DNA of 64,000 nucleotides from Paludibacterium purpuratum (lineage in GTDB: Bacteria; Pseudomonadota; Gammaproteobacteria; Burkholderiales; Chromobacteriaceae): the NCBI RefSeq assembly GCF_004363805.1, contig NZ_SNZP01000009.1, positions 1 through 64,000 on the forward strand. The letters are read 5' to 3'. A model generated the notes under the pieces. That model was not told the origin of the DNA. It saw nothing but the letters and a program-made list of their open reading frames with translations, and ran no database searches. The position numbers and the translations under genes were made by a program. Shown piece after piece: positions 5,263-41,389 of this stretch (the stretch's first letter is position 1; every line of letters begins with the position of its first letter).

Positions 5263-5296
5263 TTCCCTCCTCGGTTGCAGGCTAGTCTTGCACCAG

Positions 5297-5383
5297 GCCC
5301 AGGTGGCGGAATTGGTAGACGCACTAGGTTCAGGTCCTAGCGGTGGCAACACTGTGGAAGTTCGAGTCTTCTCCTGGGCACCA
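5297..5383 (+). tRNA. tRNA-Leu (anticodon CAG), copy 3
   Basis: The same 87-nt sequence as copies 1 and 2, with anticodon CAG and encoded CCA. It stands alone about 2.5 kb from the tandem pair, with its own consensus promoter and its own terminator. Confidence 0.96.
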
Positions 5384-23780: not shown

Positions 23781-24800
23781 TCAAGCCAGCGGATGGCAGG
23801 CCTGCGCCTCGATTTCCATCAGCAGATCGTGGCGGCAAACATCCGCCTGCACGTAGACGGCTTGAAGCGTCGGGCCGACCGCCTCGACCAGCGCCTGGCG
23901 CACCAGCGGATAATCCGCCGCATGGCGCACGTAGACGCGATAACAGAGCCGCGACAGCGAAAAACCATCGGCGCCAAGCCGCCGGTTGGCCTCGTCGACC
24001 AGCACGCCGATATTGACCATGGTCTCGCGCGTCTGCGCCGCCACATCCCCGACATGAACCGTCTCATGCCCGACGATGCTGGCGGTACCGGAGATGAACA
24101 GCCACGCCTGCCCCTCCAGGCGCGCCAGCGCCGCCCGAGTGAAGGTTGGACTCTTCGGCCCGTACTGGGAGGGGTAGACGAAGGCACTCACCTGCCGCGG
24201 ATTTTCGATCGCGTCGGCAGGCGTCCGGGCAGCCAGGAAAGCAATGGAAAGCGGGCCCGGCCCCACGCCCAGCGCACAGGCGGCAGGGCTGCTGTCGACC
24301 GGTCGCTCGAAAGCGCCGAAAGCCTGATGGCGGCCAATATTGAACTGCCGGTAGCGTTCCAGGCTATGCTCGACCCGGTTGATTTCCGGCACGTAATTCC
24401 AGACGCGCCACAAGTGCGGGCGATCTTCTTCTGCCAGTAAGGCGAATATCTGCCGGTAAGCCGTTTCGGCCGCTGCCGACAACGGCGTACCCGACGCGGG
24501 CGTAAACGCAGCCTCGTCGAGTTCGACCACCCCAAACAATAGCGATGGCGTGGCACTGTAACGAATATCTCCGTAACGGCCGCGTCGACAGGACGTGGCG
24601 GCAAACCAATACTCGTACAGCGTGGGCGCACCGGCCGGGAGGCGCGGCGTGCGAACCGACTGCCGCGGCCAGCCGTCGACAGCGGCGCATGGCGCGCCGA
24701 CGGCGCTCATGCCCAGCAGCGTGGGTTCGGGGAAAGATAGATCCGGTACGGATAACGCGGTCTCCGACAAGCAGAACCGCAAACGATCAGCAGCATTCAT
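23781..24800 (-). CDS. Chorismatase (FkbO/Hyg5/XanB2 family), probable hydroxybenzoate supplier
   Basis: Chorismatases hydrolyse chorismate to pyruvate plus a dihydroxycyclohexadiene carboxylate or a 3-/4-hydroxybenzoate; XanB2 of Xanthomonas makes the 3-hydroxybenzoate starter of xanthomonadin. The 339-residue length fits. Family blocks seen are LWRVWNYVPEIN, ERYRQFNIGRHQAF, SAFVYPSQYGPKSPTFTRA and LFISGTASIVGHETVHVGD; the C-terminal RidA-like half ends with LLMEIEAQACH, where one Glu should be the catalytic acid. It lies next to an aryl-polyene gene set that has an acyl-AMP ligase but no ammonia lyase, so a 3-hydroxybenzoate starter is a natural inference. Which isomer is made cannot be read here. 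Confidence 0.87.
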   Translation of the reverse strand: MNAADRLRFCLSETALSVPDLSFPEPTLLGMSAVGAPCAAVDGWPRQSVRTPRLPAGAPTLYEYWFAATSCRRGRYGDIRYSATPSLLFGVVELDEAAFTPASGTPLSAAAETAYRQIFALLAEEDRPHLWRVWNYVPEINRVEHSLERYRQFNIGRHQAFGAFERPVDSSPAACALGVGPGPLSIAFLAARTPADAIENPRQVSAFVYPSQYGPKSPTFTRAALARLEGQAWLFISGTASIVGHETVHVGDVAAQTRETMVNIGVLVDEANRRLGADGFSLSRLCYRVYVRHAADYPLVRQALVEAVGPTLQAVYVQADVCRHDLLMEIEAQACHPLA

Positions 24801-24834
24801 AAAACGACATACAAAGTTGATGGAGCAGTCCCGG

Positions 24835-25518
24835 TCACATACTCAGACCGAGTCCGCGGGCAGCATGGGCTTTCAGGCCGGTCGCCAAGGCGGTGACGAT
24901 GCCCAGCACAGTACCGGCCAGCACGTCCAACGCGACATGCTGTTTAATAGCCATGGTGGAATAGGCGATGGCCACGCACCAGACGACATTCAATACCTGC
25001 GACATCGTTCCCACCTGCAGGAAACGCAAGCGCCAATAAAGCCAGAAGCAGGAAAACACCGCAGTGGCGACATGCAGCGACGGGCAGGCGTTGCCCGCCG
25101 TGTCGACCTGTTTCAAAAACGCCACGCTCGGATATTGCGTCCAGTCGATATGCGCCGGCGGCACCGCATTGGGCCATAAATAGAATACGGCCAGGCCGAT
25201 CAGGCAAGGCACGAGCACTCGCAAACCATAGCGAGCGATCTCGCCGGTCGACAGCATCAGGATGGGCGGCAGCGAGACATATAACCAAAGCGACAGATAA
25301 ATCGGCAGCGCAACGGGCTGGAAGCCGATGGCATCGTCAAGCCATGTCGTGGGAATGATACTGACCGGCGCGGCCGGGTGCTTGAGCAAAAACAGATAAG
25401 CGACGAAAAAGCACAGGGTGAACCCCATCGTGCCAAACATCTTGAACCAGAAATGGGTCGCAACCGTTGTCCAAAATCCCATTCCCTCACGACGGCGAAT
25501 GATTGCCCCTTCGTTCAA
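24835..25518 (-). CDS. PAP2-superfamily membrane phosphatase
   Basis: A 227-residue integral membrane protein with about five or six transmembrane segments. The PAP2 phosphatase motifs are present in part: GNACPSLHVATA (motif 2, with the catalytic His) and STMAIKQHVALDVLAG (motif 3, His and Asp kept, but Thr in place of the usual Arg). Relatives dephosphorylate phosphatidate, undecaprenyl diphosphate or work on sphingolipid-like head groups. The TTG at 25518 has AAGGAG 5 bases upstream and looks a better start than the first ATG in frame. It lies 34 bp downstream-to-upstream with the chorismatase gene on the same strand, so the two are likely one operon divergent from the polyene genes. Confidence 0.78.
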   Translation of the reverse strand: MNEGAIIRRREGMGFWTTVATHFWFKMFGTMGFTLCFFVAYLFLLKHPAAPVSIIPTTWLDDAIGFQPVALPIYLSLWLYVSLPPILMLSTGEIARYGLRVLVPCLIGLAVFYLWPNAVPPAHIDWTQYPSVAFLKQVDTAGNACPSLHVATAVFSCFWLYWRLRFLQVGTMSQVLNVVWCVAIAYSTMAIKQHVALDVLAGTVLGIVTALATGLKAHAARGLGLSM

Positions 25519-25741
25519 ATCGACTCCTTCAATCCGATATCGCACTGTACCTCTGGGCAGCCCTGTTGCTATAATTTTGCCCTTTTCGTCAAGGAACTTC
25601 CGGCGAACCCGCCATCGGGCACGAAAACCCGCGCGGACGGAAGCATGCCTGTTTCAGACGGAACGTGATCATACCGGAAAGTAGATTACGTTGGCGATTG
25701 CCGATACATCTTCATTAACATTTAGCGCGAAACTGCAAACC

Positions 25742-26032
25742 ATGTCACTTCAATCCACTGCACAAACCGCACCGGACCTGGCCCTCGAACGAGAAATGGC
25801 GGGACTCATCGTGACGGCGCTGAACCTGGACATCGCGGCGGAAGCTATCGAGCCGACGGAACCGCTGTATGGCGACAAACTGGGCATCGACTCCATCGAC
25901 ATTCTGGAGATCGCCCTGGTCATGTCGAAGCAGTACGGCGTGCAAATGAAGGCCGACAGCGAAGACAACGCCCGGATTTTCGGCTCGCTGCGCGCCCTGG
26001 CGAGCTATATCGGCGAGCACCGCGCGAAATGA
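25742..26032 (+). CDS. Acyl carrier protein, aryl-polyene cluster (ApeE/F or XanC type)
   Basis: A 96-residue carrier protein with the phosphopantetheine site in KLGIDSIDILEIAL (Ser of DSID). It would carry the aryl starter or the growing polyene. The ATG at 25742 gives the usual carrier length; a TTG 17 codons earlier is possible. Its last codons overlap the next gene by 4 bp, opening a tightly coupled row of about eleven forward genes. A second carrier protein lies at 38259-38537, as in other aryl-polyene clusters. Confidence 0.9.
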   Translation: MSLQSTAQTAPDLALEREMAGLIVTALNLDIAAEAIEPTEPLYGDKLGIDSIDILEIALVMSKQYGVQMKADSEDNARIFGSLRALASYIGEHRAK

Positions 26033-26712
26033 TGCCGCTTTGGCGCAAGCTGCGCCCGGCCCTGTTGGCGGGCGCCTTCGCCGTCTACGTGTTGTTGAGC
26101 TACCTGGCCTCCTCCACCAATCATCCGCCGCTTCTGGCAGTGATCGTGGGGTCGCTCCCACTGGCGGCAGGCATCGTCGCCGCCTGCTGGCAGTCGCCGT
26201 TTCGCTGGCCGGCGATGTTGGCCTGCCTCGCGGCGGGCATCGCCATCGCGCTGAACATCGACCGGCTGATAGGCCATGCGGCTTGGCTCTATTTCATTCA
26301 GCATCTCGGCGCCATGCTATCGCTCGGCGTCCTGTTCGGCGGCACCTTGCGCAGCCACGAAGGCGCACTGTGCTCCCGCATCGCCAAGCTCGCCATCGCC
26401 GAGGAGCTCGACGCCCGCTACCTGCATTACACTTGGCGCGTCACCCTGGTCTGGACCCTCTATTTCGCTGTCAGCGCGATCGTATCCGTTGCGCTGTTCT
26501 GCCTGGCTCCGCTCGCGGCCTGGGCCTTCTTCGCCACGGTGTTGACGCCGATTTCGCTGGGCATCATGTTCGGCGGCGAGTTCCTGATCCGACTGCGCAC
26601 CCTGCCGGATAGACCGCACTTCAGCATCGCCCAGACGATCCGCTCGTACCGCCAGTACATGCAACAGCGTAAATCGTCCGCCGCGACGCCAATCTCACAG
26701 CACATCGAATAG
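26029..26712 (+). CDS. COG4648-type multi-pass membrane protein of aryl-polyene clusters
   Basis: A 227-residue protein with about five to six hydrophobic helices, including LLAGAFAVYVLLSYLA, LAVIVGSLPLAAGIVAA and LAAWAFFATVLTPISLGIMF, and a conserved central GTLRSHEGALCSRIAKLA. Proteins of this type occur in nearly all aryl-polyene clusters between a carrier protein and the acyl-AMP ligase; databases often mislabel them as ketosynthase. The biochemical role is not known to me; membrane anchoring of the synthase complex is a possibility only. Confidence 0.75.
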   Translation: MMPLWRKLRPALLAGAFAVYVLLSYLASSTNHPPLLAVIVGSLPLAAGIVAACWQSPFRWPAMLACLAAGIAIALNIDRLIGHAAWLYFIQHLGAMLSLGVLFGGTLRSHEGALCSRIAKLAIAEELDARYLHYTWRVTLVWTLYFAVSAIVSVALFCLAPLAAWAFFATVLTPISLGIMFGGEFLIRLRTLPDRPHFSIAQTIRSYRQYMQQRKSSAATPISQHIE

Positions 26713-26719
26713 CGTCATC

Positions 26720-28069
26720 ATGAGTTCGTTACCCTTGCTTCCAGCGACCGACCCCCAGGCGCCCTTCGCCCTCTATCGCGGCGCCGTCGTCTCCAGAGAA
26801 TGCTTTCAGTCGCAAGTGATGGCGCTTGCCGCCGCCTTGCCGGCCAGCGAACGCGTCCTCAACCTGTGCAGCGACCGATACTGGTTCGCCGTGTCGCTGT
26901 TCGCCGCTATCGCACGCGGCATCATGACGGTATTGCCCAACTCGGCCGCGCCGGAGCATCTGGCCGCCGTCGCCGCAGAACAACCCGGCCTGCTGCTACT
27001 CGGCGATCAGGATGCCGCGCCGGCCGACCACCTGCCGTATTTCCGCGTCGACACCGCGGCATCGAACAGCGCGATCTCGGCCGACCTGCCGCTCATCCCG
27101 TTCGACCGGCTGGTGGCCTGCGTCTACACCTCTGGGTCGACCGGCACGCCGAAACCGCATTACAAGGCCTTCGGCCGGCTGCGACTGGGCATACTGGCCG
27201 GCGCGGAACGCATCTGGGAAGCGGCCGGCGGCCCCTGTTCCGTGGTGGGCACGGTACCGATCCGACACATGTACGGTCTGGAGTCCAGCGTGCTGTTGCC
27301 GATCTTCGGCGGCGGGCGCATGTCGACCCACATCCCGTTCTTTCCGTTGGACATCGCCGCGAGCCTGGCCGAAATGGCCGCGCCGCGCCTGTTGGTGATT
27401 ACCCCATTCCATCTGCGCAAGCTGCTCGAAGCCGACATCGCGCTGCCGCCGGTCGCGGCGGTGCTATCCGCCACCGCCCCGTTGTCGGCCGAACTGGCCC
27501 AAGACACCGAGGTGCGCCTGGGCTGTCCGGTCATCGAGATTTACGGTTCGACCGAGACCGGGCAACTGGCCACCCGCCAACCTTGCCGGGAGACCGTTTG
27601 GCACAATCTCGGCGACATCACCCTCGCCGTCCGCGACGGCGAGACCTGGGCACAGGGCACGGTCTACCAGACGCCGCAGATGCTCAACGACACTGTCGAG
27701 TTGCTCTCCCCCTCGTCGTTCAGACTGGTCGACCGTAAGGCCAACATGGTCAACGTCGCCGGCAAACGCAGCTCGCTGAGCTTTCTCAACGCCACGCTCG
27801 CCGCACTGCCTGGCGTCGAAGACGGCGTCTTCTGCATCCCCGAGCGTCACGGCGCCCAGGACGTGGAACGGCTGGCGGCCTTCGTGGTGGCGCCGACCCT
27901 GAACCGGGAAACCCTCCTGGCCGGCCTGCGCGCCCACATCGACCCGGTATTCCTGCCGCGCCCGATCGTCTTCGTGGACTCGCTGCCGCGCGATGGCAAC
28001 GGCAAGATCCTGGCACGCACGCTGGATACCCTGATCCAGCAGCACATCCTCGACCGGAACACGCCATGA
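26720..28069 (+). CDS. Acyl-AMP ligase loading the aryl starter (ApeH/XanA2 type)
   Basis: A 449-residue adenylate-forming enzyme. The ATP-binding A3 loop is VYTSGSTGTPK (about 135-145), A5 is IYGSTETGQ, and the C-terminal domain carries the catalytic lysine region DGNGKIL. ApeH activates 4-hydroxycinnamate and XanA2 activates 3-hydroxybenzoate for transfer to a carrier protein. With a chorismatase and no ammonia lyase nearby, 3- or 4-hydroxybenzoate is the likely substrate. It is shorter than free acyl-CoA ligases, as is usual for this group. It overlaps the next gene by 4 bp. Confidence 0.88.
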   Translation: MSSLPLLPATDPQAPFALYRGAVVSRECFQSQVMALAAALPASERVLNLCSDRYWFAVSLFAAIARGIMTVLPNSAAPEHLAAVAAEQPGLLLLGDQDAAPADHLPYFRVDTAASNSAISADLPLIPFDRLVACVYTSGSTGTPKPHYKAFGRLRLGILAGAERIWEAAGGPCSVVGTVPIRHMYGLESSVLLPIFGGGRMSTHIPFFPLDIAASLAEMAAPRLLVITPFHLRKLLEADIALPPVAAVLSATAPLSAELAQDTEVRLGCPVIEIYGSTETGQLATRQPCRETVWHNLGDITLAVRDGETWAQGTVYQTPQMLNDTVELLSPSSFRLVDRKANMVNVAGKRSSLSFLNATLAALPGVEDGVFCIPERHGAQDVERLAAFVVAPTLNRETLLAGLRAHIDPVFLPRPIVFVDSLPRDGNGKILARTLDTLIQQHILDRNTP

Positions 28070-28362
28070 CGACTCTGGCACTGTCTATCCCCGCCGATCA
28101 CCCAGCCTTCGCCGGTCACTTCCCCGGCCGGCCCATCGTACCGGGTGTCGTGCTGCTCGACCTGGCGCAGCTCGCCATCGCCGAGGCCATAGGCCAGGAG
28201 CCCATGGGCCTGGCGGTCGCCAAGTTCCATAGCCCGGTCGGACCGGACACGGCGCTGCAACTCGATGTCGAGGTGGTCGGCTGCGCCGTCCGCTTCGAAA
28301 TCCGCGCAGGCGAGCGCAAGGTGGCCGACGGCAAGTTCCTATTGCCGGAGGCCGCGCCATGA
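28066..28362 (+). CDS. Hotdog-fold 3-hydroxyacyl-ACP dehydratase (ApeI type)
   Basis: A 98-residue single hotdog domain with the FabZ-like catalytic segment HPAFAGHFPGRPIVPGVVLL, where the His of GHFPG is the expected base. In aryl-polyene synthesis two dehydratases, ApeI and ApeP, act in each elongation cycle to leave double bonds; the partner here is at 35749-36195. Start and stop overlap neighbours by 4 bp each (ATGA). Confidence 0.87.
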   Translation: MTTLALSIPADHPAFAGHFPGRPIVPGVVLLDLAQLAIAEAIGQEPMGLAVAKFHSPVGPDTALQLDVEVVGCAVRFEIRAGERKVADGKFLLPEAAP

Positions 28363-29285
28363 GCCATTCGAACAGCCCCCCCGAATCGGCCGATTCCCCT
28401 GCCTGGCTACACCACAAGGAGCGCGGCAACGTCTTCTGGCTAAGCGTCATGAGCACCCTGTCGCTGCGATTGGGCCGACGACTATCGCGCGTGGTGCTGG
28501 CCGGCATCGCCCTGTATTTCGTGCTGTTCGGCGGCAAAGCTCGGCGCGCGTCGAAAGACTACCTGGCCCGTTGCCTCGGACGCCCGGCAAGCTGGCTCGA
28601 CCGCTACCGCCATGTCCTGGCCTTCGCCAGCACCATCCACGACCGCATCTATCTGCTGCGCGACCGCTTCGATACTTTCCGGATTTCGCTCGACGGTGCC
28701 GACACCCTGCACCGGCATCACGACGCGGGTCAGGGCTTGCTGCTGTTCGGTGCGCACCTGGGCAGTTTCGAAGTGCTGCGCGCCATGGCACGCCATCGGC
28801 CGGACCTGTCCGTCAGCATGGCGATGTACCCGGAGAATGCGCAAAGAATCAACCGCGCCCTGTCGGCGATCAACCCGAACGCCATGCAGGACATCATCCC
28901 GCTGGGCTCGCTCGGCGCCATGCTGGCCGTGCACCGCCGCTTACAGGAAGGCGCGTTGGTCGGCATCTTGGCCGACCGCGCCGTCGGGCCGGATCAATAC
29001 GTCACTCTGCCGTTTCTCGGCGCGCCGGCCCGCTTCCCGACCGGCCCCTTCCGCATGGCACTCATGTTGGGCCATCCGGTCTATTTCATGGCCGGCCTCT
29101 ATCTGGGCGGCAACCGTTACCGAGTTCATTTTGAAATGCTGACCGACGGCGCCGACCTCGCCGGCCTCGAACGCGATGCCGCCATCGAGACCCTGCTCGG
29201 CAAATACGTGGCGGCGCTGGAGCGCCAATGCCGCGCCCAGCCTTTCAACTGGTTCAATTTTTACGATTTTTGGGAAGAAGCCTAA
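28359..29285 (+). CDS. LpxL/HtrB-like acyltransferase of the polyene cluster
   Basis: A 308-residue inner-membrane acyltransferase of the lysophospholipid/lipid A type. It has an N-terminal hydrophobic segment (VVLAGIALYFVLFGG) and the family H-x4-(D/E) motif as HLGSFE in LLFGAHLGSFEVLRAM, followed by ILADRAVG and FPTGPFRMAL. In aryl-polyene clusters such enzymes are thought to attach the polyene or a fatty chain to a glycerophosphate or sugar lipid carrier. It overlaps the dehydratase gene by 4 bp and precedes the LolA-like gene by 7 bp. Confidence 0.85.
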   Translation: MSHSNSPPESADSPAWLHHKERGNVFWLSVMSTLSLRLGRRLSRVVLAGIALYFVLFGGKARRASKDYLARCLGRPASWLDRYRHVLAFASTIHDRIYLLRDRFDTFRISLDGADTLHRHHDAGQGLLLFGAHLGSFEVLRAMARHRPDLSVSMAMYPENAQRINRALSAINPNAMQDIIPLGSLGAMLAVHRRLQEGALVGILADRAVGPDQYVTLPFLGAPARFPTGPFRMALMLGHPVYFMAGLYLGGNRYRVHFEMLTDGADLAGLERDAAIETLLGKYVAALERQCRAQPFNWFNFYDFWEEA

Positions 29286-29292
29286 ACAAACC

Positions 29293-29883
29293 ATGCACGC
29301 AAACCGAATCGCCAAATCTTTTGCCGGGCTACTACTGCTGTTGCTGGCCATGACCGCCGCCCATGCCGCCGACTGGGGCATGCAGGATCTGATGCAGATG
29401 CTGAGCCAGAAAAAGACCGGCAGCGCCACCTTCGTCGAAAAGAAAACCCTGGCCGTGCTGAGCCAGCCGCTGGAATCGTCCGGCGAATTGTCCTTCACCG
29501 CTCCGGACCGATTGGAAAAGCGCACCCTCAAGCCCAAGCCCGAATCGATGGTGCTGGTGGGCGATAAGCTGACGCTGGAACGCAGCGACGGCCGCAAGAT
29601 GACCGTATCGCTCAACGACCGCCCCGAAGTGGCGGCCTTCGTCGAGAGCATCCGCGCCACCCTCTCCGGCGACCGCGGCGCGCTTGAGCGCTTCTACAAC
29701 GTCACCCTGTCCGGCACCGCCGGAGAATGGCAACTGACACTGGTGCCGATCCAGCCGCGCATGCAAAAGATCATCAGCCAGATCCGCATCGCGGGTAGCC
29801 GCGCGCAGGTCAAGACCATCGCCTTCCTGCAAGCTGACGGCGACCGCTCCGACATGACCATCACCAGCGCCAACTCGCGATGA
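29293..29883 (+). CDS. LolA-like periplasmic carrier protein
   Basis: A 196-residue protein with a cleavable signal peptide (FAGLLLLLLAMTAAHAA, cut near residue 27) and a LolA-type fold suggested by alternating strands such as SATFVEKKTLAVLSQPLESS and GELSFTAPDRLEKRTL. LolA relatives in these clusters are believed to carry the lipidic polyene across the periplasm. It is directly coupled (4-bp overlap) to the MMPL exporter gene, which supports a joint transport role. Confidence 0.83.
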   Translation: MHANRIAKSFAGLLLLLLAMTAAHAADWGMQDLMQMLSQKKTGSATFVEKKTLAVLSQPLESSGELSFTAPDRLEKRTLKPKPESMVLVGDKLTLERSDGRKMTVSLNDRPEVAAFVESIRATLSGDRGALERFYNVTLSGTAGEWQLTLVPIQPRMQKIISQIRIAGSRAQVKTIAFLQADGDRSDMTITSANSR

Positions 29884-32219
29884 AATCACCGCGTCGGACC
29901 CTGCTGCTCGCCGTCTGGGCGTTGTCGATGCTGGCCGCCGTACTGGTGATCGCCCAGACCCGCTTCATCGCCGACCTGTCGGCCTTCATGCCCAAGGCGC
30001 CCAGTACCCGGCAGCAGATGCTGCTCGATCAGCTGCGCGACGGCGCGATCGCCCGCATCGTCCTTTTGGGCATCGAAGGCGGCGACAATGCCGAGCGCGC
30101 CCGGCTGTCGCGCGGCCTGGTCGACAAGCTCGCCGGCAACCCGCTGTTCTCCTCGATACAGAATGGCGATGCCGCCACCGCAGAACGCGATCAGCGCTAT
30201 TATTTCGACAACCGCTACTTGCTCAGCCCGGCGATCGATTCGCAGCGCTTCAGCGCGGCCGGCATGCATCAAGCCGTTGGCGACTTGATCGACGATATGT
30301 CCGGCGACGCCGGCTTGATCGTCAAACAGATTCTGCCGCGCGACCCGACCGGCGAAACGCTGCGCATCATCGACCAATTCGGCGGCGAAACACCGCCGCG
30401 CACCGACAATGGCATCTGGGTGTCGCGCGACGGCCAACGCGCCGTATTGATGGTGCAACTCACCGACTCGGGCTTGAATACCGACGCCCAGGCCCATGCG
30501 CTCGACACCATCCGCATGGCCTTCGATTCGCTACCAGGCCATCCGGCCGCCACTCGGCTGAAGATGAGCGGCACCAGTGTGTTGTCCGTCTCGGCGCGCA
30601 ACACCATTCAGGGCGAAGTCGGTCGTCTGGCCGTTGTCGGCACCGTGCTGGTGGTCTGTCTGCTGCTATTGATCTACCGCTCGGTGGTGCTGCTGCTACT
30701 GGGCCTGGTGCCGGTCGTCTCGGGCGCACTGGTCGGCATCGCCGCGGTCAGCCTCGGTTTCGGCCATGTACACGGGCTGACGCTGGGCTTCGGCACCACG
30801 CTGATCGGCGAGGCGGTCGACTACTCGATTTATCTATTCATGCAACGCGAAAACGGCAGTCACCCGGCCGGCTTCTGGCGCACGATCCGCTTGGGTGTGC
30901 TGACCTCGATCGCCGGCTTTGCCGCTTTGCTGTGCTCCAGCTTCCCCGGCCTATCGCAGTTGGGCCTGTACTCGATCAGCGGCCTGGTCACCGCCGCGCT
31001 GGTCACGCGCTACGTATTGCCCGTGCTCATGCCGGCCAACGCCCGCCTGAACGACCTGACCCCTATCGGTCTGCGACTACAACAGGCACTGGACTTCCTG
31101 ATGCGTATGCGCTGGCTGATGGTCGCCGCCGGTGCTTTGGCCGCGCTGGTGCTGGTCGTCAACCATCAAAGCCTCTGGAACCGCCAGCTGTCGGCGCTCA
31201 GTCCGATCTCCAAGGCGCAAAGTGCGCTCGACCTTCAACTGCGTGGCGACCTGGGCGGCAACGATATGCGCTACGTGGCAAGTTTCACCGCGCCGAACCA
31301 GGAAAGCGCGCTCGCCGAGGCGGAACGCGTCGACGCCGTGCTGCGCCCCTTGCAGCGCAATCAGGTTATCTGCGGCTTCCATTCGCCAAGCCAGATCCTG
31401 CCAAGCCTGGCCGCCCAGCGCGCACGCCAGGCCGCCTTGCCCGATGAGGCGCAGGCGCGCGGCAATCTGCAGCTTGGGCTCGCCGGCCTGCCGTTGTCGG
31501 CCGACAAACTCGACGGTTTCTTGACCGATCTGCGCGCAGCACGCCGCCAACCGCTACTGACGCGTGCCTCGCTCGCCGGCACCTCGTCCGGCATGCTGCT
31601 CGATTCGATGCTGATCAAGCGCACGAGCGGGTTTTTGGTGCTGATGCCGCTCAGCCCTTGCGGACAAGGCACGACCGACGACCGTCTCGACCTGAACCGC
31701 GTGAGCGCGGCCCTCGATGCCAACGGGCTCGGCCAAGTCACGGTGATCGATCTGTTGGAAGAAACCACCGGCATCTTCGACAGCTACACCCACGAGGCGC
31801 TGCTGCTGTCGTCGCTGGGCTGCCTGACCATCCTGCTACTACTGAGCCTTGCCTGCGGCCCGCGCCGCGCGATGCGCGTCGCGCTACCGCTGGCTTGCGC
31901 CGTACTGTGCGTGGTGGCGCTCCTACACGCCGGCGGTGTGCAATTGACGATCCTGCACCTAGTCGGGCTGTTGCTGGTCGTGGCCATCGGCTCCAATTAC
32001 GCACTGTTCTTCGTCAGCGACAGCGGCGGAGATCAACGCAAGATGGAAACTTCACTGGTCATCGCCAACCTGGCCACCGTCATGAGCTTCGGGCTCTTGG
32101 GCACGTCGAGCGTGCCGGTGCTGTCTTACATCGGCTCCACCGTGGCCATTGGCACCCTACTGGCGCTGGTCTTTTCCGCCGGGCTAACACGGATTCGCTC
32201 CCATGCGCGTCATCCATGA
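29880..32219 (+). CDS. MMPL/RND-family exporter of the polyene cluster
   Basis: A 779-residue inner-membrane transporter with two repeats, each of one transmembrane helix, a large periplasmic loop and five more helices. Transmembrane stretches include VGTVLVVCLLLLIYRSVVLL and LLSSLGCLTILLLLSLAC, and each half has a conserved region such as FGTTLIGEAVDYSIYLFM and GLLLVVAIGSNYALFFV, where an Asp in the first half (VDYS) is the usual proton-coupling residue. In xanthomonadin and aryl-polyene clusters the exporter moves the pigment to the outer membrane. Overlaps of 4 bp before and 17 bp after show tight coupling. Confidence 0.9.
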   Translation: MKSPRRTLLLAVWALSMLAAVLVIAQTRFIADLSAFMPKAPSTRQQMLLDQLRDGAIARIVLLGIEGGDNAERARLSRGLVDKLAGNPLFSSIQNGDAATAERDQRYYFDNRYLLSPAIDSQRFSAAGMHQAVGDLIDDMSGDAGLIVKQILPRDPTGETLRIIDQFGGETPPRTDNGIWVSRDGQRAVLMVQLTDSGLNTDAQAHALDTIRMAFDSLPGHPAATRLKMSGTSVLSVSARNTIQGEVGRLAVVGTVLVVCLLLLIYRSVVLLLLGLVPVVSGALVGIAAVSLGFGHVHGLTLGFGTTLIGEAVDYSIYLFMQRENGSHPAGFWRTIRLGVLTSIAGFAALLCSSFPGLSQLGLYSISGLVTAALVTRYVLPVLMPANARLNDLTPIGLRLQQALDFLMRMRWLMVAAGALAALVLVVNHQSLWNRQLSALSPISKAQSALDLQLRGDLGGNDMRYVASFTAPNQESALAEAERVDAVLRPLQRNQVICGFHSPSQILPSLAAQRARQAALPDEAQARGNLQLGLAGLPLSADKLDGFLTDLRAARRQPLLTRASLAGTSSGMLLDSMLIKRTSGFLVLMPLSPCGQGTTDDRLDLNRVSAALDANGLGQVTVIDLLEETTGIFDSYTHEALLLSSLGCLTILLLLSLACGPRRAMRVALPLACAVLCVVALLHAGGVQLTILHLVGLLLVVAIGSNYALFFVSDSGGDQRKMETSLVIANLATVMSFGLLGTSSVPVLSYIGSTVAIGTLLALVFSAGLTRIRSHARHP

Positions 32220-33686: not shown

Positions 33687-33767
33687 CACGTTGCCGGTTA
33701 CCGTTGTTCGAAGCCTTGGATCGTGGCCCGCCGACGCCACGCCGTATCGACCTGCCATAAAGTCTTT

Positions 33768-34961: not shown

Positions 34962-35752
34962 GCATGGCACCCCTTTACATCGACGGCGTCAGCATCCTCG
35001 GGCCGGGACTGGCCAACTGGGAAGAGGCCGCCCGCATCCTCTGCGGCGAGCAGCCGATCGAATTGGCGCCGATCGTCGTCGCGGCGCCGGCATTATTACC
35101 GCCGACAGAGCGTCGCCGCGCCGGTATGGCCATCAAGCTGTCGATGGCTGTCGGCCTTGCCGCGGCCGATGCCGCCGGCATCGACCCGGCTTCGCTCGCC
35201 AACGTTTTTTCCTCGACGGGCGGCGATTGCGAAAACTGTCACAACATTCTGGAAACCCTGGCGTCGAGCGATCGCATGATCTCCCCGACCCGCTTTCATA
35301 ATTCGGTGCACAACGCGGCGGCCGGCTACTGGAGCATCGCCACCCACTGTACGGCCGCCTCCACCAGCCTCGCAGCCTACGACGCCACCTTCGGCGCAGG
35401 CCTGCTCGAAGCCGCCACCCAGGCGCTGGCCAGCGGCAAACCTTGCCTGCTCATTGCCTTCGATACCGCCTATCCGGAACCGCTTTACGCCTTGCGACCG
35501 ATTCCGTATCCGTTCGGTATCGGCATGGTGCTCAACCCCGCGCGTAGCGCCGCGAGCCTTGCCTCGCTACGCCTGGCGTTGACTCGCGATCCGGTCGAGC
35601 CGATGGACGACGCGCAACTGGAACATATTCGTCAACAGATTCCCGCCGCGCGCGGTCTGCCCTTACTGCGCGCCTTGGCGACCGGCACGGCCGGCCGCGT
35701 GGTGCTCGACTATCTCGACGACACGCGCCTGGCGCTCGAGGTCGGCGCATGA
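34958..35752 (+). CDS. Beta-ketoacyl synthase chain-length-factor-like protein (ApeC type)
   Basis: A 264-residue short ketosynthase-like protein of the Ketoacyl-synt_2 kind. It keeps a Cys at the usual position (Cys131 in HCTAASTSLAAYD) but ends before the two histidine motifs, so it cannot be a complete condensing enzyme. In aryl-polyene systems ApeC pairs with ApeO as a heterodimer that sets chain length. Coupled translation with the ketosynthase gene upstream and the dehydratase gene downstream (4 bp overlaps) supports this pairing. Confidence 0.87.
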   Translation: MSMAPLYIDGVSILGPGLANWEEAARILCGEQPIELAPIVVAAPALLPPTERRRAGMAIKLSMAVGLAAADAAGIDPASLANVFSSTGGDCENCHNILETLASSDRMISPTRFHNSVHNAAAGYWSIATHCTAASTSLAAYDATFGAGLLEAATQALASGKPCLLIAFDTAYPEPLYALRPIPYPFGIGMVLNPARSAASLASLRLALTRDPVEPMDDAQLEHIRQQIPAARGLPLLRALATGTAGRVVLDYLDDTRLALEVGA

Positions 35753-36195
35753 TCGACCGGGATTGGATCGCCGCGCGCATCCCGCACCATGGCGACATGT
35801 GCCTGCTGCATGCGGTTCGAGAATGGGACGATCAACACATTGTCTGCGCGGCCGTGAGCCATCTGGCCAGGGAGAACCCACTGCGCGCGAACGGCCGGCT
35901 GGGCATTGCCAACGCCATCGAATACGCGGCGCAGGCCATGGCGGTTCACGGCGCGCTGTTGAATGGCGCGAACGAGGCCCCCAAGGCGGGCTTTCTCGCC
36001 AGCGTGCGCGACGTGCGCTGGCATCGGCCGCGCCTGGACGATATCGGGCAGCCGCTGACCATCCGCGCCACCCGCCTGTCCGGCAACGACGTCAGTGTGC
36101 TGTATCAATTTGAAATCCATGCCGGCGAATTATTGGCAAGCGGCCGGGTCAGCGCCATCTTGGACGCCGCCGCCCTTGCCGGCAAAACCCTGTAA
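35749..36195 (+). CDS. Hotdog-fold dehydratase (ApeP type)
   Basis: A 148-residue hotdog protein. The N-terminal IPHHGDMCLLHAVREW corresponds to the ApeP/FabA-like motif IPHRGPMLLLD, and GIANAIEYAAQAMAVHG holds the conserved acidic residue helix. It is the second dehydratase expected in aryl-polyene synthesis, complementary to the small one at 28066-28362. The ATG overlaps the preceding stop by 4 bp. Confidence 0.87.
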   Translation: MIDRDWIAARIPHHGDMCLLHAVREWDDQHIVCAAVSHLARENPLRANGRLGIANAIEYAAQAMAVHGALLNGANEAPKAGFLASVRDVRWHRPRLDDIGQPLTIRATRLSGNDVSVLYQFEIHAGELLASGRVSAILDAAALAGKTL

Positions 36196-36209
36196 GAGTC
36201 CGACCTCCG

Positions 36210-36929
36210 ATGAAACGAGCATTGATCACCGGCGGTAGCGGCGCCATCGGCGCCGCCATCTGCCGACGTCTAGCCCACGATGGCTTTCATGTCATCGTCC
36301 ATGCCAATCGCCAACTCGCCGCCGCCACGGCGCTCTGCGCCGAATTGGCCGCAGAGGGCCTGTCGGCCGAAGCCGTACAATTCGATGTCGCCGACGCCGA
36401 GGCCACGCGCCAGAGCCTGGAAAACCTGCTGGCGGCCGGCGCCATCCAAGTGGTGGTCAACAACGCCGGCATCCACGACGATGCCGTCTTCCCCGGTATG
36501 CGGCCGGATCAATGGCATCGCGTCATCGACGTCTCGCTGCATGGATTTTTCAATGTCACCCAACCGCTGACCATGCCGATGATCCGCACCCGTTGGGGGC
36601 GCATCATCAATCTGTCCTCGGTCGCCGCACTGACCGGCAACCGCGGACAGACCAACTACGCCGCGGCAAAGGGGGCGCTGCATGGCGCCACCAAATCGCT
36701 GGCCATCGAACTGGCCAGCCGCGGCATCACCGTCAACGCCATTGCGCCGGGCATCATCGAATCGGATATGACCAAAGACACCTTCGGTGCGGAGCAGGTG
36801 GCACGCATGGTGCCGATGAACCGTGTGGGAAAACCGGAGGAAGTGGCAAGCCTGGTGGCCTTCTTGGCATCGAAAGAAGCCAGCTACATCACCGGCCAGA
36901 TCATTTCGATCAACGGCGGGATGATCTAA
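36210..36929 (+). CDS. 3-oxoacyl-ACP reductase (FabG-like, ApeQ type)
   Basis: A 239-residue short-chain dehydrogenase. It has the cofactor motif TGGSGAIGAAI, NNAGIHDD, catalytic Ser in NLSSVAAL and the YAAAK catalytic Tyr-Lys. It would reduce the 3-keto group after each condensation with NADPH. Last gene of the forward row; it converges on the second ketosynthase gene, with a REP-like palindrome between them. Confidence 0.92.
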   Translation: MKRALITGGSGAIGAAICRRLAHDGFHVIVHANRQLAAATALCAELAAEGLSAEAVQFDVADAEATRQSLENLLAAGAIQVVVNNAGIHDDAVFPGMRPDQWHRVIDVSLHGFFNVTQPLTMPMIRTRWGRIINLSSVAALTGNRGQTNYAAAKGALHGATKSLAIELASRGITVNAIAPGIIESDMTKDTFGAEQVARMVPMNRVGKPEEVASLVAFLASKEASYITGQIISINGGMI

Positions 36930-36938
36930 GAACGGCCG

Positions 36939-37000
36939 TAGGAGCAGCTTCCGCCGCGATTGGCCGCCGCAAGTAAATCGCGGCTAAAGCCGCTCCCACG
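36939..37000. repeat. REP-like inverted repeat between convergent genes
   Basis: Two copies of a REP-type sequence face each other: GTAGGAGCAGCTTCCGCCGCGAT at 36939-36961 and, inverted, ATCGCGGCTAAAGCCGCTCCCAC at 36978-37000. The second is a near-perfect palindromic REP of the GTGGGAGCGGCTTTAGCCGCGAT class known from Pseudomonas and Xanthomonas relatives. The pair can fold into one long hairpin and probably ends both convergent transcripts. Confidence 0.75.
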
Positions 37001-37007
37001 AGACAAG

Positions 37008-38258
37008 TCAACACCGTCGAGCCACCAGCGACACATTGCTGCCGCCGAAAGCGAAAGAGTTGGACATGATGGCCGACACCTCGCAACCGTGGCGCGCCGT
37101 CAGAGGAATGAAATCCAGATCGCAGCGCGGATCCGGCGTATCCAACGTAGCCGTCGGCGGCAGCGAACCGCTATTCATCGCCATCATACTGAGGACGAAT
37201 TCGAGAATACCGCTGGCGCCGATCAGGTGGCCATGCATCGATTTGGTGGAGCTGACTGCCAGACGCGTGGCGGCTTGGCCGAACACCGTTCGGATCGATT
37301 GCGCCTCGACCACGTCGCCGGCATCGGTGGCGGTGCCATGGGCATTCAGATACTGGATCTGTTCCGGTTCGAGCCCGGCCTGGGCCAACGCCTGACGCAT
37401 CGCCACCACCTGCTCCTCGCTCGACGGCGCGGTCAGATGCGCGGCGTCGCTACTGCAGCCATAACCGCAAAGCTCGCCAAACGCCGCGCGCTGCCGAATA
37501 GCCGCGCGCGCCTCGCTTTCCAGCACGATGGCCGCCGCGCCCTCGCCGAGCACGAACCCGCTGCGGTTCAGCGCGAATGGGCGGCAACTGCGCGCCGGAT
37601 CGGCAGCGTCGGGTTTGGCCATCACGCGCAAGGCGTTCCACGCCAACATCGCCCCCGGCGTCAACATGGCTTCGGTACCGACCACCACGGCGGCATCCAG
37701 ATAACCGTCGCGGATTGCCCGGAACGCCTCGCCGATCGCCACCGCGGAAGATGCGCAAGCCACCGAGTAGGTATTGCTCGGGCCGCGCAAGCCGTACTGC
37801 ATCGACACCGTCGCGGCGGCGGCATTGGCCATCATGCGCGGTACCGACAACGGATGCACCACGGTCGGACTACGATTGCCTTGGCCGTTTTGCAAAGTGT
37901 TATGCAGACGCGTATACAACGCGTCCACCGTTTGCGCCCCGCCAAAGCCGATGCCGACATAGACGCCGAAACGACGCGCACCGTCCGGGGAGGCCGCGAC
38001 GCCGGCATCGGCCAGCGCCTCTTTGGCGGCCACCAACGCGAATTGCGTCGCCCGATCGAGCTGCGCGTGGCAATTATCGAGCAACGAACGGGGATCGACC
38101 GCGGCCGGTGCAACCAGCACCTGCGGCAGCCACTTCGCGATCTCCGGCGTCGCCGGGCCGATCGCGCACCGTCCGGCCAACGCGGCGGCGAACGTGCTCA
38201 GCCGGTCGGCACCCAGGGGGCTGATGGCCCCCATGCCAGTGATCAGTACCTTGGTCAA
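37008..38258 (-). CDS. 3-oxoacyl-ACP synthase II-like ketosynthase (ApeR type)
   Basis: A 416-residue condensing enzyme with a complete triad: Cys168 in SVACASSAVA, His307 in NAHGTATDAGD and His344 in SMHGHLIGASG with Lys339 before it. In aryl-polyene clusters a second ketosynthase (ApeR) beside ApeO/ApeC is regular, probably for the first condensation on the aryl starter. The start codon directly follows the stop of the carrier-protein gene, so the two form a small operon on the opposite strand to the rest of the cluster. Confidence 0.9.
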   Translation of the reverse strand: MTKVLITGMGAISPLGADRLSTFAAALAGRCAIGPATPEIAKWLPQVLVAPAAVDPRSLLDNCHAQLDRATQFALVAAKEALADAGVAASPDGARRFGVYVGIGFGGAQTVDALYTRLHNTLQNGQGNRSPTVVHPLSVPRMMANAAAATVSMQYGLRGPSNTYSVACASSAVAIGEAFRAIRDGYLDAAVVVGTEAMLTPGAMLAWNALRVMAKPDAADPARSCRPFALNRSGFVLGEGAAAIVLESEARAAIRQRAAFGELCGYGCSSDAAHLTAPSSEEQVVAMRQALAQAGLEPEQIQYLNAHGTATDAGDVVEAQSIRTVFGQAATRLAVSSTKSMHGHLIGASGILEFVLSMMAMNSGSLPPTATLDTPDPRCDLDFIPLTARHGCEVSAIMSNSFAFGGSNVSLVARRC

Positions 38259-38537
38259 TTATTTGCTCGCTTGCAGATCGGACTCGGGCAATTCGCCGTT
38301 ATCATGCGCGCGGATGGCGCTTTCGATATCGGCCAACATGGCGGAAAAACTCATTTGCGCGTAGCGCATCGGATCGGGCAATTGAAACCCACAGCGATCT
38401 TCGATCTCAAACAGCATTTCCACCATATCGAGCGAGTCCAATTTCAAGTCGGAAACTTGCAGATCGGGCTTGTCAAACAGGGCAGTATCTTTGCCTTTAT
38501 TGTCTATCAGGTAGTTTTTAACGATATCTTCTAGCAT
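38259..38537 (-). CDS. Second acyl carrier protein of the polyene cluster
   Basis: A 92-residue carrier protein with the phosphopantetheine site LKLDSLDMVEML. GGA stands 6 bases ahead of the ATG at 38537. It is first in a two-gene operon with the ketosynthase and is divergent from the acyltransferase gene. A TATAAT (complement at 38581-38586) about 45 bases upstream is a fair -10 element. One of the two carriers in the cluster probably holds the starter and the other the extender, as shown for ApeE and ApeF. Confidence 0.9.
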   Translation of the reverse strand: MLEDIVKNYLIDNKGKDTALFDKPDLQVSDLKLDSLDMVEMLFEIEDRCGFQLPDPMRYAQMSFSAMLADIESAIRAHDNGELPESDLQASK

Positions 38538-38731
38538 GTAAATTCCAGCAGGAGTACGGGGGCCTATCACAATTTAAGGTATTATAAAGTAAAATTGTGC
38601 AAAAATGGTTGATGATGGTCTAGCTATACGCCCGGTTTGCACCCCGGTCGAATAGACTGTCGTCTTATCCCGAAACATAGAATGTCATTGGCTTTTCCCG
38701 CCATGCCGTGGTTGCCCGAAATCGAAATTTA

Positions 38732-39484
38732 ATGCTGAACCACATTCATCGCGTTCACCAGATTGTCTTGTTTTACACCATGCTGCTCTGGCTGGGTTCC
38801 ATGTTGCTTCTGGGCAACCTGTTGGCTCTCCCTCTTGTGGTCGCCCCCCGGTCGCTGCGCGAACCGCTGGTGCGCGGGACGATCAGCCTGATCTGCCGCA
38901 CCTTTCTCGACGGCGCACAAGCCTGCGGGCTGATGCGGCTCGACCTGTCGGCGCTCGATACGCTCAACGGGCGCACGCACCTACTGCTGGTTCCCAACCA
39001 TCCCAGCATGATCGACGCCTTTCTGGTGCTGTCGCGCGTGCGCCAGGCAGTATGCCTGATGAAAGCCAGCATCAGCGGCAACCTGTTCCTCGGCGCGGGC
39101 GCCCATTTGGCCGGTTACGTCTCGAACCGCCATCCCGGGCGAATGTTCCGCCAAGCCATCGACAGCGTCGCGGAGGGCAAATTGCTGATGATCTTCCCCG
39201 AAGGCACCCGGACTGTCCATCAGCCGATCAACGACCTGCAGGGCTCGGTGGCCCTGATCGCCAAAAAAGCCCGCGTACCGCTGCAAACCATCCTGATCAC
39301 CACCAATTCGCCTTATTTGAGCAAGGGCTGGAAAATATGGCGACCGCCGGTCTTTCCGCTGATTTACCGCGCCGTGCCGGGTGAACAGTTCGATGCCGAC
39401 GAAAAGCTGGAACTGACCGCGGCCAGACTCCAACAATACTTCGAATCGTCGATGACCCGCTCCATCGACCCCGACTTACGGTAA
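38732..39484 (+). CDS. 1-acyl-glycerol-3-phosphate acyltransferase-like protein
   Basis: A 250-residue PlsC-type acyltransferase. It has an N-terminal membrane segment (IVLFYTMLLWLGSMLLLGN), the catalytic NHPSMID (the H-x4-D motif) and the substrate-binding FPEGTRT. It would acylate a lysophospholipid-like acceptor with a fatty chain or with the polyene. The ATG at 38732 lacks a strong ribosome site; a GTG at 38708 is an alternative. It heads a three-gene forward row with the glycosyltransferase and methyltransferase. Confidence 0.85.
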   Translation: MLNHIHRVHQIVLFYTMLLWLGSMLLLGNLLALPLVVAPRSLREPLVRGTISLICRTFLDGAQACGLMRLDLSALDTLNGRTHLLLVPNHPSMIDAFLVLSRVRQAVCLMKASISGNLFLGAGAHLAGYVSNRHPGRMFRQAIDSVAEGKLLMIFPEGTRTVHQPINDLQGSVALIAKKARVPLQTILITTNSPYLSKGWKIWRPPVFPLIYRAVPGEQFDADEKLELTAARLQQYFESSMTRSIDPDLR

Positions 39485-39581
39485 GGGCAAGGATGCAAAG
39501 CCCGCGCCTTGACCGCGCGCCGTCTAATCGGCTATGTTCCGCAAACTCGCATTTCAGCCGGGTAAGAATGATCTCGGCGCC

Positions 39582-40355
39582 ATGACACGAATGAATAGCC
39601 CTTCCTCGACACATCTGGTTTTAATTCCCAGCTACAACCCCGGCCCCAAGGTCATTGAAACCGTACGCGCCGCCCGACACCACTGGCAGCCGGTATGGGT
39701 GGTGGTCGATGGCAGCACCGATGGCTCGGCCCAAGCACTCGAAGCGCTGGCGCAGCAAGACCCCGGTCTGCGAGTCCTGGTTCTGCCGGAAAACCGCGGC
39801 AAAGGCGCCGCCGTCCTATACGGCATCGAACAGGCAGCCAGCCTTGGCTTCAGTCACGCATTGTGCATGGACTCCGATGGCCAGCACCCGGCCGACCGTA
39901 TCCCCGACTTCATGGCCAGCTCCCAGCAGCATCCCGACGCCATGGTGCTCGGCGTGCCGGTGTTCGACGCCAGTGCGCCGTCGCTGCGCGTCAAGGGCCG
40001 CAAGATTTCCAACTGGTGGGCCAACCTGGAAACGCTTGGCATGGGAATTGGCGATTCGCTGTTCGGCTTCCGCGTTTATCCGATCGCCCCACTGCGGCAA
40101 GTGATGCATCGCCAACGCTGGATGCGCCGTTTCGACTTCGACCCGGAAGCGGTGGTACGGCTGTGCTGGCACGGGGTACGCCCCGTCAACATGCAGGCAC
40201 CGGTCAAGTACTTCCAACCCGAGGAAGGCGGTGTATCCCATTTCAACTATTGGCGCGACAACCGTCTGCTGACCTGGATGCACATTCGCCTGATGCTGGG
40301 CTTCGTTCTGCGTCTGCCGCGGCTACTCTGCCGCCGCCTCAACGGAAAGCATTGA
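39582..40355 (+). CDS. Family 2 glycosyltransferase of the polyene cluster
   Basis: A 257-residue GT-A enzyme. It has the N-terminal LVLIPSYNPG, VVVDGSTDGS, NRGKGAAVLYGIE and the metal-binding CMDSDGQHP; the acceptor side ends with QRWMRRFDFDPEAVVRL. The short form resembles polyprenyl-phosphate or lipid glycosyltransferases. In aryl-polyene clusters such genes are taken to glycosylate the polyene lipid. It lies 98 bp after the acyltransferase and 4 bp before the methyltransferase. Confidence 0.87.
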   Translation: MTRMNSPSSTHLVLIPSYNPGPKVIETVRAARHHWQPVWVVVDGSTDGSAQALEALAQQDPGLRVLVLPENRGKGAAVLYGIEQAASLGFSHALCMDSDGQHPADRIPDFMASSQQHPDAMVLGVPVFDASAPSLRVKGRKISNWWANLETLGMGIGDSLFGFRVYPIAPLRQVMHRQRWMRRFDFDPEAVVRLCWHGVRPVNMQAPVKYFQPEEGGVSHFNYWRDNRLLTWMHIRLMLGFVLRLPRLLCRRLNGKH

Positions 40356-40358
40356 ACC

Positions 40359-41237
40359 GTGTCCGTCCCGGCCATGATCGCCCACCTACTGCTAGAGCAG
40401 TTGCCTCGCGAGCCGTTGCTGCGAGTGCCGGAATCCGATGCCGTCATGGAAGCGCCGGCGCAGGTGGAAGCCTTTGCCGAAAGCGGCCGCGACCAAGGCA
40501 TCCTGGCCTACGTTTATCTCTTTCACGCGGCGCTGTCGCTGCCGGTCATCCGGCCGGGCGACCTGGTGTTGGATCTGGCCTGCGGCCCGGCCAACCAGTT
40601 GGCGCAAATTGCCCGACTGAACCCCGAGAGCCGATTTATCGGCTTGGACGCCTCCCCGCGCATGCTCGATCTGGCACGCGACACCCTGGCCCGCCAAGGC
40701 GTCGACAACGTCACGCCGAGCTATGGCGACGTCACCTGCCTCAATAACCTGGGGCCGGCATCCGTCGACACGGTGCTATGCACCATGTCGCTGCACCACC
40801 TGCCGGACACCGAGGCGCTCGCTCAGACCATGCGTGAAATCCACCGCGTCCTGAAGCCCGGCGGCGGCTTGTTCCTGGCCGACTTTGGCCGCCTGAAGCG
40901 ACAAGCGACCCAGCGTCACTTTGCCTACGACCGTATCGAGCAACAATCCCAACTCTTTACCGCCGACTTTCTCCACTCCATGCGCGCGGCGTTCAGCCTC
41001 GACGAATTGCGCACGGCCATTGAAGACGCCGGCCTCGCCGCGCATGGCTACCACACCGCCCTGGCGCCATTCATGATGATCTTCCGCAGCCAGCCGCGTC
41101 GTGTGGTCGACCGTTCGCTCACGCTACGCCTGCAACAGGCTTATCGCCGGCTCGATCGCGGCGCTCGGCGCGACTTCGACAACCTGGCGCGCTGGTTCGG
41201 CCTCGGTGGCCTCTCGCTCCCCTGCCCCGTTCGCTGA
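40359..41237 (+). CDS. SAM-dependent methyltransferase of the polyene cluster
   Basis: A 292-residue class I methyltransferase: motif I VLDLACGPANQLAQ, GLDASPRMLDLA, and the Methyltransf_11-like LCTMSLHHLPD and VLKPGGGLFLADFG. Aryl polyenes often carry a ring or O-methyl group, so methylation of the aryl head is a likely role. It starts with GTG at 40359; an ATG at 40374 is a second choice. Last gene I assign to the pigment cluster. Confidence 0.83.
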   Translation: MSVPAMIAHLLLEQLPREPLLRVPESDAVMEAPAQVEAFAESGRDQGILAYVYLFHAALSLPVIRPGDLVLDLACGPANQLAQIARLNPESRFIGLDASPRMLDLARDTLARQGVDNVTPSYGDVTCLNNLGPASVDTVLCTMSLHHLPDTEALAQTMREIHRVLKPGGGLFLADFGRLKRQATQRHFAYDRIEQQSQLFTADFLHSMRAAFSLDELRTAIEDAGLAAHGYHTALAPFMMIFRSQPRRVVDRSLTLRLQQAYRRLDRGARRDFDNLARWFGLGGLSLPCPVR

Positions 41238-41322: not shown

Positions 41323-41349
41323 ATGCCAAACGCATATTTCGTTTGGCAT
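41323..41349. repeat. Perfect 10-bp inverted repeat ahead of the RhiA-like gene
   Basis: ATGCCAAACG (41323-41332) and CGTTTGGCAT (41340-41349) with a 7-nt AT-rich loop. The T-run is on the minus-strand side, so for the forward methyltransferase transcript it is a poor terminator. It lies 40 bp ahead of the next start codon and could be an operator, an mRNA 5' hairpin, or a stop for antisense transcription. Confidence 0.6.
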
Positions 41350-41389
41350 GACCATCTACGCGAACCACCCTCAGGGAAAAGGACAGATC

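Follow-up and report, generated by a model that had tools for sequence, protein, structure and literature searches.

Which aromatic starter heads the pigment of a bacterium that keeps a chorismatase gene beside its polyene genes? The question is raised by a locus at positions 23781-41237 of a 64,000-nucleotide stretch of Paludibacterium purpuratum DNA (hereafter the window; contig C9 of a 4.04 Mb genome), where 20 genes form a polyene cluster. We regard the locus, with a probability of roughly 0.85, as a xanthomonadin/arcuflavin-type aryl-polyene cluster, the product of which would most likely be a 3-hydroxybenzoate-started, probably methylated, lipid-anchored yellow polyene. A preliminary description of the window had proposed a membrane-bound aryl polyene with a hydroxybenzoate-derived head and with sugar and acyl decoration. 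Judged by residues, synteny and co-occurrence, a 3-hydroxybenzoate-headed, membrane-targeted aryl polyene indeed seems the best reading, whereas the sugar and acyl decoration would follow from gene content only. All genes named in that description are present with open frames, according to Pfam, PDB and motif evidence, and its list, correct in every gene named, had missed those for a PAP2-superfamily protein, a membrane protein, an esterase-like protein and a polysaccharide deacetylase.

Results

Genes for an AMP ligase, a carrier protein, a ketoreductase, LolA and RND/MMPL export are all present in the cluster, as are the pair of ketosynthase and half ketosynthase (ApeO/ApeC) and the two hotdog dehydratases (ApeI/ApeP) of aryl-polyene systems. 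Ketosynthase 1 (KS1; 33768-34961, plus strand; NF006618 above cut-off; ArcK/ApeO role) and the half ketosynthase (half KS; 34958-35752, plus strand; PF13723; ArcJ/ApeC role) have as their best PDB matches the two chains of a single entry, 6qsp_A and 6qsp_B. We take the entries 6qsp and 6qsr to be the Xenorhabdus ApeO:ApeC and ApeI:ApeP aryl-polyene complexes. As the half KS matches the N-terminal ketosynthase domain only, it should not be a full ketosynthase; a Cys is retained close to its usual position in all 12 relatives aligned. KS1 and a FabF-like ketosynthase 2 (KS2; 37008-38258, minus strand; PF00109, PF02801, FabF structures) each carry the Cys-His-His motifs, which bears out the count of two full ketosynthases and one chain-length-factor-like protein in the preliminary description.

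The two hotdog dehydratases named there were likewise recovered. One is FabZ/FabA-like (28066-28362, plus strand; PF07977, FabZ structures; ArcS/ApeI role), and the other (DH2; 35749-36195, plus strand; ArcI role) is the weakest identification in the cluster, appearing ApeP-like by profile. Searched alone in Pfam, NCBIfam and PDB, DH2 gave no match at 1e-3, and its E of 0.02 against PF22817 (ApeP-like) was below cut-off. Within its family, 9 of 23 aligned members, themselves a selection from the available loci and not all of them, match PF22817 at <=0.1 (best 9.4e-5), and the family profile had a sole PDB match at 0.01, namely 6qsr_B (E 8e-9).

The aryl acyl-AMP ligase (26720-28069; PF00501, PF13193; motifs YTSGSTG, YGSTETG and GNGK) would fill the ArcT/XanA2/ApeH role, the FabG-type ketoreductase (KR; 36210-36929; PF13561, NF004200 above cut-off) the ArcH role, the MMPL/RND exporter (29880-32219; PF03176) the ArcP role and the LolA-like periplasmic carrier with its signal-like N terminus (29293-29883, start by eye; PF19574, PF03548, best NCBIfam model LolA2_flexi, below cut-off) the ArcQ role, all four on the plus strand. 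Acyl carrier protein 1 (ACP1; 25742-26032, plus strand, start picked by eye) has a GIDSI motif and matches PF00550, with NF006617 above cut-off. The second of the two carrier proteins counted in the preliminary description is acyl carrier protein 2 (ACP2; 38259-38537, minus strand; LDSLD motif, PF00550 above cut-off, E 7.9e-5), which lies directly upstream of KS2 and is conserved with it.

The chorismatase gene (23781-24800, minus strand) encodes an FkbO/Hyg5-family protein (PF21168, E 1.9e-37; matches to Hyg5 and FkbO PDB chains) that is predicted from its diagnostic residues to convert chorismate to 3-hydroxybenzoate. It scored 224.9 bits against TIGR04444, below the cut-off of 325, and aligned with Hyg5 (5ag3, 5a3k) over residues 62-332 and with FkbO (4bps) over residues 17-333. 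Gly238, Cys322 and Glu329 correspond in the alignment to Gly240, Cys327 and the catalytic Glu334 of Hyg5, and Ala176 occupies a site where both Hyg5 (Gly173, placed by offset from Nat-hyg5 Gly-164) and FkbO carry Gly; FkbO has Gly, Ala, Ala and Glu at the four diagnostic sites, taken in order from that of Ala176. With respect to the Hyg5-type diagnostic residues named in PMC7170507, the protein has, by comparison with Hyg5, the residues expected of the 3-hydroxybenzoate type (CH-II/CH-III) and departs from the strict CH-II (Hyg5) pattern in its third residue, which is Ala176 and not Gly.

All four positions are invariant in the window protein and 26 relatives from a whole-protein search (27/27). 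In a set of 107 chorismatases, Gly238 is kept in 107, Cys322 and Glu329 in 106, with one gap in the contig-end sequence L126, and Ala176 in 106, with Thr in L061. Since the DNA patterns used to fetch 80 of the 107 themselves contained the Gly and the Cys, these 80 are not independent support for those two sites; L057-L059 among them duplicate genomes of the first chorismatase set. The same residues occur in Azoarcus sp. Aa7 at a locus with the gene order of the arcB locus (L133), for which the fetch pattern also contained the Gly and Cys. A plasmid search with the chorismatase returned 15 records, all below 60% identity, which were not used further. On its residues the enzyme likely produces 3-hydroxybenzoate, and 4-hydroxybenzoate may be formed as a side product. 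ArcB of Azoarcus sp. BH72 gave 3-hydroxybenzoate in vitro, 4-hydroxybenzoate also arising without enzyme, and the same paper warns that alignment alone predicts the chorismatase reaction inaccurately (PMC3949708).

The chorismatase and the polyene genes are linked across the family. Among 61 family genomes, that of the window included, 16 have both ligase and chorismatase, 2 the ligase only (G001, G002), 2 the chorismatase only (G022, G038) and 41 neither, with presence set at E <=1e-60 for the ligase (18 genomes) and E <=1e-10 for the chorismatase (18 genomes); the Fisher p of this co-occurrence is 1.06e-10, not corrected for shared ancestry. G038 (L028) holds a chorismatase fragment with an internal stop and lacks the ligase, and the fragment is likely a relic of a lost cluster. 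G022, a genome 84% complete, has its chorismatase match near a contig end, with no further cluster gene in the 19 kb read.

Linkage of a chorismatase to the polyene genes, which marks the xanthomonadin/arcuflavin subtype, is found in the window and in 14 of 16 orthologous clusters: in the 16 genomes with a ligase of at least 70% identity, the chorismatase gene and the gene of a PAP2-superfamily membrane protein (24835-25545, minus strand; PF01569; synteny in 15 relatives), a probable lipid phosphatase, adjoin the cluster in all except G002 and G016. The PAP2 gene is present in 16 of 16 orthologous clusters examined, including one without chorismatase. G016 (L046, L047) has a PAP2-bearing cluster without chorismatase, KS1, half KS, DH2 or KR matches, as well as a fuller second cluster with a chorismatase on another contig. 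G007 (L034, L141, L142) has two polyene clusters about 100 kb apart; in the chorismatase-bearing one, no match was seen to the esterase-like, deacetylase, DH2 or KR genes, and the second acyltransferase was matched in short pieces only. Outside the family, 80 named chorismatase loci were compared, the best 80 of at least 581 relatives found via the chorismatase alignment, and in 74 of them the stretch fetched includes one or more of 15 cluster genes.

Two congeners bear directly on the question of the starter. G001 has a different polyene cluster, and no chorismatase was found in this genome. Across the 18 cluster genes compared, G002 shows 71-85% identity and open frames throughout, and ACP2 is also open (87%). 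The PAP2 gene of G002 directly adjoins an alkZ-like gene (L045, 15500-17700), which in the window and in the congener G003 sits beyond the chorismatase; neither a protein search nor a family search of the G002 genome found a chorismatase, and UbiC was found. An assembly gap is unlikely at this site, which lies inside a contig, even if the draft genome comprises about 160 contigs. Because the chorismatase stands at this site in the window, in G003 and in most cluster-bearing relatives, loss in G002 is the simplest reading.

There is no clear sign of relaxed constraint in the G002 cluster, which is not proof that there is none. The proportion of nonsynonymous changes (pN) is below that of synonymous changes (pS) in all 18 cluster genes compared, and private changes at otherwise invariant sites number 11 in the ligase (14 in G003, 0-4 in the others), 7 in the half KS (8 in G003), 0 in KS1, 11 in KR (6 in G003, 5 in the window) and 15 in the MMPL exporter (11 in G003, 9 in the window), so that, of the five genes for which rows could be used, KR and MMPL are the two in which G002 has the most. 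Both comparisons left out the PAP2 and ACP rows of G003, where both frames are open, and that of private changes also left out the whole PAP2 set and the KS1 row of G016, a paralogue.

A 4-hydroxycinnamate starter belongs to the flexirubins. The sole aromatic ammonia-lyase (PF00221) in the genome of the window is HutH, above the curated cut-off and adjoining, by eye, urocanase-like and formimidoylglutamase-like genes in a hut-like setting. No source of 4-hydroxycinnamate was thus seen, and a tyrosine ammonia-lyase route, or flexirubin type, was rejected for this single gene being HutH. A search of the genome with PF04820 (Trp_halogenase) gave 0 matches, which makes a brominated product, as in xanthomonadin proper, unlikely.

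The cluster opens on the left with the chorismatase and PAP2 genes, both on the minus strand. These are followed by the main plus-strand run of ACP1, membrane protein, AMP ligase, FabZ-like dehydratase, acyltransferase, LolA, MMPL, esterase-like protein, deacetylase, KS1, half KS, DH2 and KR, and then by the ACP2-KS2 pair on the minus strand and a plus-strand group of acyltransferase, glycosyltransferase and methyltransferase. Within the main run, 26029-26712 encodes a membrane protein (by eye) in the conserved ArcU/ApeG position, without a significant family match, 28359-29285 a lipid A-type acyltransferase (PF03279; ArcR role), 32203-32883 an alpha/beta-hydrolase or esterase-like protein (PF00756 at cut-off; ArcO position) that might serve as a release or transfer enzyme, and 32880-33686 the polysaccharide deacetylase (PF01522; ArcN role). 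The last three genes are predicted to encode a glycerophosphate-type acyltransferase (38708-39484; PF01553; ArcD role), a family 2 glycosyltransferase (39534-40355; PF00535; ArcE role) and an S-adenosylmethionine methyltransferase (40359-41237; PF13649; ArcM role).

The ACP2-KS2 pair looks typical mainly of this family's clusters. ACP2 occurs at 69-87% identity in the family's orthologous clusters wherever the stretch fetched extends to it, in some cases only partly, and at 67% identity in one metagenome locus (L060). KS2 was found in 4 of the 80 named loci, three at 40-43%, where the fetched stretches do not always extend that far. Between KR and KS2, G002 and G003 have a third hotdog-like gene, recognised by eye and by a weak match to the first dehydratase, whereas the window has instead an 80-base gap with an inverted repeat. 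At 36939-36998, between the convergent KR and KS2 genes, lies an inverted pair of REP-like 23-base units (2 matches against 0 expected).

Beyond the cluster, two proteins of about 240 residues (41348-42103, plus strand; 42517-43230, minus strand) have no Pfam match and have in common a short C-terminal motif, YxxDGTWxVS. The stretch 43631-46305 encodes an FHA-domain protein and then a protein in which serine/threonine kinase-like motifs were recognised by eye. Three tRNA-Leu(cag) genes lie at 2559-5383, two close together and the third 2.5 kb off.

Discussion

From the gene content, frames, key residues, synteny and co-occurrence observed at this locus, we infer every reaction, and the product, as follows. 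The chorismatase would convert chorismate to 3-hydroxybenzoate, the AMP ligase would load it onto a carrier protein, and the pair of KS1 and half KS would extend this starter with malonyl units, which the ketoreductase and the two dehydratases would turn into a conjugated polyene; the ACP2-KS2 pair is probably concerned with starter handling or priming. Either the head or the acid is probably the target of the methyltransferase, and the acyltransferases, glycosyltransferase, deacetylase, esterase-like and PAP2 proteins would join the polyene to an anchor, either a lipid or an amino sugar. Transport in the direction of the outer membrane would fall to MMPL and LolA, and there the polyene is expected to serve as a yellow shield against light and oxidation.

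Several observations weigh against a 3-hydroxybenzoate head. UbiC is present in the genome of the window, so that 4-hydroxybenzoate is available too, and the ligase need not discriminate, since ArcT of Azoarcus activated 3-hydroxybenzoic acid and also benzoates changed at position 4 (PMC3949708). With Ala176 in place of Gly, the protein fits the Hyg5 type only in part and may also form some 4-hydroxybenzoate, an activity reported for XanB2. The congeners G001 and G002 have polyene clusters but no chorismatase that we could find, and 6 of the 80 named chorismatase loci (L088, L089, L101, L106, L121 and L126) are without a cluster gene, full 10 kb flanks being available for L088, L089 and L121 only. 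In addition, the single carrier protein that is usual, if not defining, in Xanthomonas clusters (PMC8253772) is here replaced by two.

The head could accordingly be 4-hydroxybenzoate from UbiC, with the chorismatase mainly making diffusible 3-hydroxybenzoate or a minor starter, an explanation that we consider improbable. It would fit the finding of UbiC in 14 of the 15 relatives searched as well as in the window genome, the whole, open-framed cluster of G002 and the different cluster of G001, but it leaves the chorismatase adjoining 14 of 16 orthologous clusters, its strong co-occurrence with the ligase and its retained 3-hydroxybenzoate residues to be accounted for, and G041, the sole relative in which UbiC was missed, has both cluster and chorismatase. 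G041 might depend on its chorismatase for 4-hydroxybenzoate, as reported for Xanthomonas. In the window genome, by contrast, the presence of UbiC should make the chorismatase dispensable for ubiquinone, whereas in Xanthomonas XanB2 was reported as needed (as told in PMC3949708). The contrast drawn in the preliminary description, with 4-hydroxycinnamate as the starter of many aryl polyenes, does not hold for those of the E. coli type, for which 4-hydroxybenzoate from UbiC is the predicted starter (PMC8253772).

Far less probable is that, as in arcuflavin, the polyene is esterified with a dialkylresorcinol. The polyene genes do agree with the arcuflavin loci in content, a second KASIII-like gene exists elsewhere in the genome (G000:C8), and the ACP2-KS2 pair might recall the ACP and KS genes (darC, darJ) of the Azoarcus dar locus (PMC3949708). 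Yet neither darA or darB genes nor any KASIII-like gene could be recognised in the cluster, and the second KASIII, a match to the general model PRK07515, has as neighbours an Rrf2-like regulator and an ABC solute-binding protein; inspection by eye of 3.3 kb at this place showed nothing resembling darA, no search being aimed at DarA. We give the least credence to a chorismatase of FkbO type that feeds a dihydroxycyclohexadiene carboxylate to some other product and stands beside the cluster by accident. Both enzymes belong to one superfamily, but the linkage is conserved, and FkbO-type chemistry was rejected on the residues, FkbO having Ala at both sites where the window protein has Gly238 and Cys322. 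A 3-hydroxybenzoate head remains our preferred reading for the window.

Within the genus, we speculate that the starter gene is a plug-in part, G002 having lost the chorismatase and kept a working cluster that is now fed 4-hydroxybenzoate by UbiC; this is a tentative idea that we hold to be possible rather than probable. If it is true, 3- and 4-hydroxyphenyl polyenes would arise in close relatives from almost identical sets of enzymes. Nature here provides a comparison, since the same chromosomal site holds the starter enzyme in the window and lacks it in G002, and it can be used to ask what determines the head group of aryl polyenes; this question, sharpened by G002, is the sole part of the present analysis that is of wider interest.

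Comparison with known systems

The arcuflavin loci of Azoarcus sp. BH72 (arcA-X, PMC3949708) agree with the window cluster in gene content and order. Both have a chorismatase, ligase, ACP, two dehydratases, KR, ketosynthase and half ketosynthase, two acyltransferases, LolA, exporter, deacetylase, glycosyltransferase and methyltransferase, and both belong to betaproteobacteria, two of the relatives that share the window cluster, Vogesella oryzae and Pseudogulbenkiania subflava, being Chromobacteriaceae (Neisseriales, Betaproteobacteria). The betaproteobacterial setting was thus rightly recognised in the preliminary description, but it is not unusual, since arcuflavin was shown in 2014 in a betaproteobacterium with much the same genes and a tested chorismatase, and the window cluster belongs to a known kind. 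In Azoarcus BH72 the genes lie in two unlinked loci, with a halogenase gene and dialkylresorcinol genes, whereas the window has one locus and no Trp_halogenase match in its genome; it has an extra PAP2 gene and the ACP2-KS2 pair, where the Azoarcus dar locus has an ACP and KS of its own.

The xanthomonadin cluster of Xanthomonas and Lysobacter (XanB2, XanA2, ORF1-17), likened here by description, is similar in its chorismatase-fed 3-hydroxybenzoate starter and its ketosynthase and half ketosynthase. Xanthomonas differs in having one carrier protein (PMC8253772) and bromination, against two carrier proteins and no PF04820 match here, and the Lysobacter cluster is also without a halogenase gene (PMC3691225). 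Deletion of the chorismatase homologue in Lysobacter lowered the pigment by about 90% and left some (PMC3691225), so that pigment in a chorismatase mutant, which the preliminary description had offered as a refutation of its proposal, would not be a clean one. The aryl-polyene clusters of E. coli and Xenorhabdus (ApeA-R) resemble the window in two carrier proteins, three ketosynthase-type proteins, relatives of ApeO/C and ApeP, LolA and an RND-type exporter; unlike the window, the part of the E. coli gene table available to us lists no chorismatase. As to the enzyme itself, Hyg5 and FkbO have the family and the catalytic Glu in common with the window protein, which differs from both in Ala176 for Gly and from FkbO in Gly238 and Cys322.

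Among bacteria of this family, antiSMASH arylpolyene labels have been reported for Vogesella oryzagri, which has been described as creamy white (PMC12282012), and for Chromobacterium subtsugae and C. sphagni (PMC11890870); the arylpolyene label in PMC12823646 belongs to Pantoea. The open-licence literature searched, itself only partly examined, held no description of this cluster's chorismatase in Chromobacteriaceae, and what it held on chorismatase together with aryl polyenes was the Xanthomonas work and the Azoarcus paper (PMC3949708). Set beside these systems, the present analysis shows that Chromobacteriaceae hold a complete cluster of xanthomonadin type in one locus, and otherwise confirms a known pathway in another family.

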